Source: Methanohalophilus mahii DSM 5219 (GTDB lineage: Archaea; Halobacteriota; Methanosarcinia; Methanosarcinales; Methanosarcinaceae). From it: a stretch of 64,000 nt of DNA. Both the position numbers and the translations under genes were made by a program. The stretch lies in the NCBI RefSeq assembly GCF_000025865.1, contig NC_014002.1:682001-746000 (forward strand), written 5' to 3'. Numbering within the stretch: position 1 is the first letter of the stretch; every line of letters starts with the position of its first letter. Below, piece after piece: positions 13,601-29,394 of the stretch. The notes under the pieces were generated by a model. The model searched no databases and was not told the origin of the DNA. It worked only from the letters and a program-made list of their open reading frames with translations.

Positions 13601-15074
<1,474 letters not shown>

Positions 15075-28103: not shown

Positions 28104-28733
28104 TCAATCAAAGGTACCCGGGATAATTCCCAGTGCCTTTTCTACTTTTTCCAGCATGTCATAGCGTATTCCGATAGGTACTTCTTCACTACTATACTTG
28201 CTGTGTTTTCTGGATCCTTTGCAGCCAAAAGACAGGCTTATTCCTTTATTCAGGGTCCCTGCTACACAATCACTGCATACAGAAGCTGCGCCTATTGTTT
28301 GAATATCTGCTGGAGTTCCGTTGTAATAGGCCATCGCCTGGATGATTCGCATTGCTTTTTCCGGTTTCAGGTACAGAATACAAATATCAAATTTTGTACT
28401 TTTTTTTGACAAAGGTTCAATTTTCAAAGTCCCGTATTCCTTTTCCAGCCGGCAGAGGGAAAGGACCGCATTTTCTGCGATTTCGTATGATGCGTATCTA
28501 CCGGAATTGAAATAGTATTCAGCCGGAGGTTGTCTATTTTTATTAAGGATGAATTTGCCAACTCTGCATCTTTGTGCCGTAATCAGGGATTGTTTTCCAT
28601 ATCTTGCATCCGTAATAATTTCGCAGAAGAGTTTCTCTGATACGTCCCCTTTCGTACTGTTCTGGAAAGTAATACAAACCGGATTTCCTTCATCCATAAT
28701 GTCCTTTATGTTTTTCAACCAATCATGTACCAC
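28104..28733 (-). CDS. DUF169 family protein (short form)
   Basis: About 209 residues. The DUF169 signature CR-x-GKFIL (QRCRVGKFIL), SGRYASYEIAENAV, and the C-terminal SVCSDCVAGTLNKGISLSFGCKGSRKHSKYSSEEVPIGI block are all present, with conserved cysteines in CSDC and GCKGSR. GTG 28733 is preferred because GGGG lies eight bases upstream, giving an 11-bp overlap with the end of the endonuclease V gene; the frame runs on to 28781. Family function is unknown. A longer DUF169 paralogue sits beside SepCysS in this window. Confidence 0.8.
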   Translation of the reverse strand: MVHDWLKNIKDIMDEGNPVCITFQNSTKGDVSEKLFCEIITDARYGKQSLITAQRCRVGKFILNKNRQPPAEYYFNSGRYASYEIAENAVLSLCRLEKEYGTLKIEPLSKKSTKFDICILYLKPEKAMRIIQAMAYYNGTPADIQTIGAASVCSDCVAGTLNKGISLSFGCKGSRKHSKYSSEEVPIGIRYDMLEKVEKALGIIPGTFD

Positions 28734-29394
28734 TGCTTTTACCCCATTTCTTTTTCTCTTCTCCTGCACATCGATGAGCAAGTCTTAATGGTTCAGGCAT
28801 TTTGCTTCCTTTCAGGCACTTTATTGTTATTTCCAGACAACTTTTGATGGATGTACGATGTCCGACTGTAATTACGATTGGTTTTGTTTCGGACAATACT
28901 TTAAGGAGCCAACCTCTTTGTTTTCCTCCATCATACAATGGCTGGGCTTCATTTTCTTTTTGTGGTATTTTTGCCCTGCCACAAAACATTCTTTTTGTGA
29001 TCCCGATCGTGGGCTTATCCAGGACCACTCCAATATGAGAGGCAAATCCGGCGTTTGCGGGATGGGTGACACCACAGGCATTGATCATAAGCAGGTCAGG
29101 TTTGTTGCTGAGCTTTTGATAGGCTCTTATTGTCCCTTCTCCCTCACGAAATGAAAAATACCCTGGTATATAAGGAAAACTTATCTTTCCGATATGAAAT
29201 GTCCTTTCGACAAATTCCATTGTGGGATATTTTAGTACGACAATACAGCATATCACCAGATTTTTGAAGTAGGTGCAGTCAGCACCCCCAATAAGTTTGA
29301 TATTTTCAAACCCATCAATGGTGACTACCTTTCTGCCTATTTCTTCCTGCAGATTTCTGAACCACTATAGAGCGGAATCTGACAACGTTTTCAT
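28723..29394 (-). CDS. nfi: endonuclease V homologue with in-frame TAG at codon 10
   Basis: Read from ATG 29394, the product starts MKTLSDSAL, then TAG (29367-29365), then WFRNLQEEIGRKVVTIDG and IKLIGGADCTYF, and continues through PYIPGYFSFREGEGTIRAYQ and HPANAGFASHIGVVLDKPTI to TGA. The ATG overlaps the sepS stop as ATGA, a classic coupled start, and between the TAG and GTG 29256 there is no ATG, GTG or TTG. Starting at GTG 29256 would remove Asp39, the equivalent of the first catalytic Asp of EndoV. TAG therefore probably encodes pyrrolysine. EndoV cuts next to deaminated bases (inosine). The second usual Asp position is Asn105 (INACGVTHP), so activity may be altered. Confidence 0.8.

Follow-up and report, generated by a model that had tools for sequence, protein, structure and literature searches.

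A shared in-frame TAG in an endonuclease V-like gene of Methanohalophilus that is probably read as pyrrolysine

The endonuclease V (EndoV) homologue of the halophilic methanogen Methanohalophilus mahii, a gene of a DNA-repair family whose start overlaps the stop codon of sepS, has an in-frame TAG as its tenth codon, and the reading that we favor, with reasonable if incomplete confidence, is that this UAG is translated as pyrrolysine within an EndoV-like protein whose active site is altered and whose sequence is under loose constraint. A first-pass annotation of this DNA had proposed translation through the TAG into endonuclease V. The translational part of that interpretation is supported by the presence of the TAG in six species, by selection on codons 11–46, by the lack of conservation of the GTG at codon 47, by an invariant Gln16 and by a full pyl system; the other part, that the product is endonuclease V in the sense of an active enzyme, is doubtful.

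Gene layout and the decoding of UAG

The window, by which we mean the whole 64,000-nucleotide stretch analyzed, corresponds to bases 682001–746000 of the single 2,012,424-bp contig of M. mahii, and the features of the locus are collected in Table 1. On the minus strand the TGA of sepS (29393–29391) is overlapped by an ATG (29394–29392) in the arrangement ATGA, and the frame opened there reads MKTLSDSAL, the TAG (29367–29365), and then WFRNLQEEIGRKVVTIDGFENIKLIGGADCTYF, ending at a TGA at 28725–28723. It comprises 223 codons including the TAG, with 213 sense codons behind it. The initial description of an ATGA-coupled frame that crosses a TAG at codon 10 into EndoV was thus accurate in both its coordinates and its reading, as was the statement that the frame lacks any ATG, GTG or TTG from the TAG to the GTG at 29256 (codon 47). 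Elsewhere in the window, a TAG-containing ORF at 14710–15069 was set aside as its frames resemble non-coding DNA; this region is perhaps an rRNA operon.

Table 1. Features of the sepS–EndoV locus (window coordinates)
Feature	Position	Strand	Basis
sepS, O-phosphoserine--tRNA ligase, 539 aa	29391..31010	-	NCBIfam TIGR00470, 762 bits
EndoV homologue, 223 residues including the UAG-encoded residue at position 10	28723..29394	-	Pfam PF04493, E 3e-58
EndoV ATG start, overlapping the sepS stop, kept in 6/6 species	29392..29394	-	sequence, alignment
In-frame TAG, codon 10, kept in 6/6 Methanohalophilus genomes with EndoV	29365..29367	-	alignment
Asp39, equivalent to T. maritima D43, present	29278..29280	-	alignment
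GTG codon 47, first ATG/GTG/TTG 3′ of the TAG; GTA in 3/6 congeners	29254..29256	-	alignment
Asn105, at the position of the T. maritima metal ligand D110; Asp in other aligned Methanosarcinaceae	29080..29082	-	alignment
DUF169 family gene, next after EndoV and overlapping its end	28104..28781	-	ORF and profile match

The M. mahii genome encodes a complete pylTSBCD set in one cluster, with a tRNA-Pyl gene (pylT) of anticodon cta and with PylS, PylB, PylC and PylD each scoring above their NCBIfam cut-offs; PylS was found in all eight Methanohalophilus genomes searched. TAG terminates only 12 of the 394 long ORFs counted in a 444-kb sample of the genome, and one of these is the 355-codon front of an mtbB-like gene (L074) that continues for 111 codons past its TAG. 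In M. acetivorans, a UAG introduced into an ordinary reporter, with no special context, is read as pyrrolysine at 20–30% (PMC2933860), and PYLIS-like elements are not required (PMC2933860, PMC8211752); the 5′ mRNA of the EndoV gene folds better than shuffled sequences, with a z of −2.6. Taken together, the pyl set, the rarity of TAG ends and the M. acetivorans reporter make pyrrolysine the natural candidate for residue 10, which we infer from the presence of tRNA-Pyl(CUA). The selection described below shows that the TAG is crossed and is silent as to which residue is inserted, so that a near-cognate tRNA could in principle read UAG and place an ordinary residue there; such a tRNA would, however, have to outcompete a dedicated CUA-anticodon tRNA and its synthetase, and we consider this extremely unlikely. 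A literature search on pyrrolysine together with endonuclease V returned nothing on this gene, which is also unnamed in the main text of PMC3639795. We note separately that the stop codon of pylB itself is TAG in each of the eight Methanohalophilus genomes (L069:6386–7447, minus strand; L060–L066), as has been reported for several other Methanosarcinaceae (PMC2933860).

Distribution of the TAG and selection behind it

EndoV has a patchy distribution in the family, with matches above the Pfam cut-off in 37 of 111 genomes. Alignment of the sepS–nfi junction in relatives, a check put forward with the first-pass annotation, shows that all six Methanohalophilus genomes holding EndoV, M. euhalobius and M. 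profundi among them, agree both in the ATGA overlap and in having TAG as codon 10. The codon-10 TAG is absent from every other Methanosarcinaceae EndoV examined, and the residue aligned to it in other genera is mostly Glu, Asp or Lys. Two congeners (G033 and G037) cleanly lack EndoV and have the DUF169 gene directly behind sepS; their sepS genes are more distant (79 and 78% identity). The retention of the TAG in six species is not by itself beyond what common descent predicts: with about 0.24 changes observed per site, we estimate that any three bases would go unaltered over the six-species tree roughly half the time, and the conservation is therefore not significant and no proof that pyrrolysine matters.

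More informative are the changes behind the TAG, which were mapped by parsimony on the six-species tree and compared with a null in which those base changes are placed at random under uniform mutation. Codons 11–46 have accumulated 9 nonsynonymous (N) and 16 synonymous (S) changes against a neutral expectation of 17.4 N (P about 0.0005), and codons 11–223 have 67 N and 78 S against 98.6 N (P below 0.0005), with no new stop in codons 11–223 across the six species where 5.9 are expected (P 0.0025). Codons 1–9 plus 11–25 likewise show fewer N changes than neutral (P 0.002), and codons 1–9 by themselves point weakly in the same direction (P 0.03). The few N changes and the lack of new stops indicate that the region behind the TAG is still selected as protein, and because the TAG is common to all six species, this selection postdates it; homology thus continues past the in-frame TAG under purifying selection. 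The gene is nonetheless only loosely constrained compared with sepS, for which the same mapping gives 45 N and 214 S. Pairwise EndoV dN/dS values are 0.13–0.40 (0.07 for the near-identical pair L033 and L035), and two terminal branches are indistinguishable from neutral (L032, P 0.29; L031, P 0.12).

In a rival reading, translation begins only after the TAG, at a non-standard codon such as ATA19, CTG15 or ATT26, with the TAG just ending a 9-codon leader and pyrrolysine uninvolved. Six near-cognate codons lie between the TAG and GTG47 (CTG15, ATA19, ATT26, ATC32, ATT35 and CTG46), and ATA19, which has a purine-rich stretch (AGGA) immediately 5′ of it, is the only one unchanged in all six species; CTG15, ATT26 and ATC32 are unconserved, as is GTG47, replaced by GTA in three species and hence not a conserved start. 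Initiation at ATA19 would, however, exclude Gln16, which sits between the TAG and codon 19 and is invariant in 22 aligned EndoV proteins, and the codons before ATA19 are also low in N changes (7 N, 10 S, P 0.018). AUA start codons are, moreover, very rare, and we regard a start behind the TAG as very unlikely. A further argument offered at the outset, that starting at the GTG would lose the first catalytic Asp, holds to the extent that Asp39 (T. maritima D43) does precede GTG47; it is weaker than first stated, because Asn has already replaced the counterpart of T. maritima D110, and crossing the TAG would not keep the catalytic site whole.

Active site changes and gene decay

The EndoV homologue matches PF04493 over essentially its whole length (197 bits, profile positions 3–198 of 198), and Asp39, Glu84, His111 and Lys134 correspond to D43, E89, H116 and K139 of T. 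maritima EndoV. The new observation is that the catalytic Asp110 is replaced by Asn (Asn105) in all six Methanohalophilus copies, leaving the metal-binding set D43/E89/D110 incomplete; D110 is a metal ligand in the T. maritima enzyme (PMC4650699), and other aligned Methanosarcinaceae EndoV proteins keep Asp at this position. The hypoxanthine-pocket residue G111 is also changed, to Ala, in all Methanohalophilus copies. A solved T. maritima chain, 6ozf, has Asn at the D110 position and, judged by its sequence, is an engineered form. Scores fall below the NCBIfam equivalog cut-offs, at 186.5 of 230 bits for NF008629 and 167.6 of 300 for NF041102, and the identity of the homologue as an active enzyme appears doubtful; with the metal-binding Asp lost, the protein is probably a poor or dead nuclease.

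Substitutions of this kind, present in every Methanohalophilus copy, are among the points favoring the main rival to the pyrrolysine reading, namely that the TAG ended the gene in the ancestor of the genus and that the remainder is a slowly decaying pseudogene that only looks intact. Rapid divergence points the same way: within Methanohalophilus EndoV diverges 5.5 times as fast as sepS, where other comparisons give 1.5–2.9, and the EndoV stem branch is roughly threefold longer than the one for sepS (0.76 vs 0.25); one other lineage (L010) has an EndoV/sepS ratio similar to that of Methanohalophilus. The N changes after the TAG are nevertheless far below neutral, and neither a dN/dS near 1 nor the random stops that should follow a disabling change are seen. 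The first-pass annotation had named two kinds of evidence that would count against it, and the outcome is mixed: no start or frame bypassing the TAG was found in the relatives, but marks of decay are present. Besides the two congeners that lack the gene, two have a broken frame. In the complete genome L034 a 7-nt deletion interrupts EndoV; that branch is still under selection (12 N, 21 S, P 0.0002), and the break is therefore apparently recent. In M. profundi (L035) one T is missing from a T-run, but sepS bears a 1-nt frameshift in the same assembly, and the EndoV gap is thus likely to be an assembly error; the sepS frameshift suggests indel errors in that record more generally. The frames of the other four of the six are intact. 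In a second genus, g10, two genomes (L036 in G056 and L037 in G059) likewise have a split or frameshifted EndoV gene, which therefore seems dispensable in the family.

The citrate synthase gene provides a further point in favor of decay. It has one TAG in M. mahii (G000:C1:499583–500647, L098; L096–L102), for which the authors of the genome proposed pyrrolysine (PMC3017947), and among the congeners it is open in two, in fragments in four and not found in one. TAG and gene decay therefore go together in this genus, which lowered our confidence in pyrrolysine at the EndoV codon; with the selection behind the TAG weighed against it, we still hold the pseudogene explanation to be unlikely. The state of citrate synthase in the congeners also calls into question the published suggestion for that gene. 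An MFS-type transporter of M. mahii has an in-frame TAG at codon 289 (L078:1159–2298, minus strand; G000:C1:1011158–1012297), where five congeners have Trp in an open frame; this TAG reflects either a nonsense mutation of recent origin or a further site where pyrrolysine is tolerated.

Proposed course of events and comparison with known systems

Under the pyrrolysine reading, ribosomes finishing sepS would reinitiate at the overlapping EndoV ATG, and at codon 10 the PylS-charged tRNA-Pyl(CUA) would read UAG as pyrrolysine in a fraction of passes, yielding the 223-residue EndoV-like protein. The TAG would have a single origin, no later than the common ancestor of the six species, at a variable and probably exposed site near the N-terminus (occupied by Glu, Asp or Lys in relatives), a position that would accommodate pyrrolysine but not need it. 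Weak purifying selection has been retained, with Asp110 lost in the same lineage as the TAG, and the protein probably cleaves poorly or not at all and perhaps only binds. The picture is probably that of a pyrrolysine-containing, perhaps nuclease-dead EndoV-like protein whose gene is drifting toward loss. A more elaborate alternative, in which such a nuclease-dead protein binds inosine-containing nucleic acid without cutting it, has its abundance coupled to pyrrolysine supply by the early UAG and is retained for a new role in one genus, strikes us as quite unlikely.

The methylamine methyltransferases MtmB, MtbB and MttB resemble this case in having an in-frame TAG that is read through in the same organism (as in the mtbB-like gene above), but their pyrrolysine is catalytic and conserved across genera, whereas the EndoV TAG is near the N-terminus, distant in sequence from the catalytic residues, and confined to one genus. 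With endonuclease V itself (nfi; T. maritima 2w35 and E. coli Nfi) the protein shares the whole Pfam domain and the four active-site equivalents listed above, and differs by the changes at D110 and G111 and by its sub-cut-off scores. M. mahii citrate synthase is alike in organism, in its single in-frame TAG and in the pyrrolysine proposed for it; it differs in having full-length copies without an internal stop in two congeners and fragments in four. The EndoV TAG also serves as a caution that in genomes of this type such a codon can accompany the decay of a gene. Outside the methylamine methyltransferases, pyrrolysine has been demonstrated or proposed at few amber codons, and the closest precedent for the EndoV TAG is the neutral amber codon of the M. 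acetivorans tRNA-His guanylyltransferase Thg1, where pyrrolysine was observed and is unneeded for activity (PMC2933860). Both are housekeeping-type genes unconnected with methylamine metabolism, each has a single in-frame TAG and a host with pylTSBCD, and in both the residue is probably neutral. In Thg1, however, pyrrolysine has been seen directly in a protein that works without it, whereas in EndoV it is deduced and a catalytic residue has been lost; and the Thg1 amber is present in one species whereas that of EndoV is fixed in six, which makes it, unlike a single-species amber, old enough for statistics of selection.
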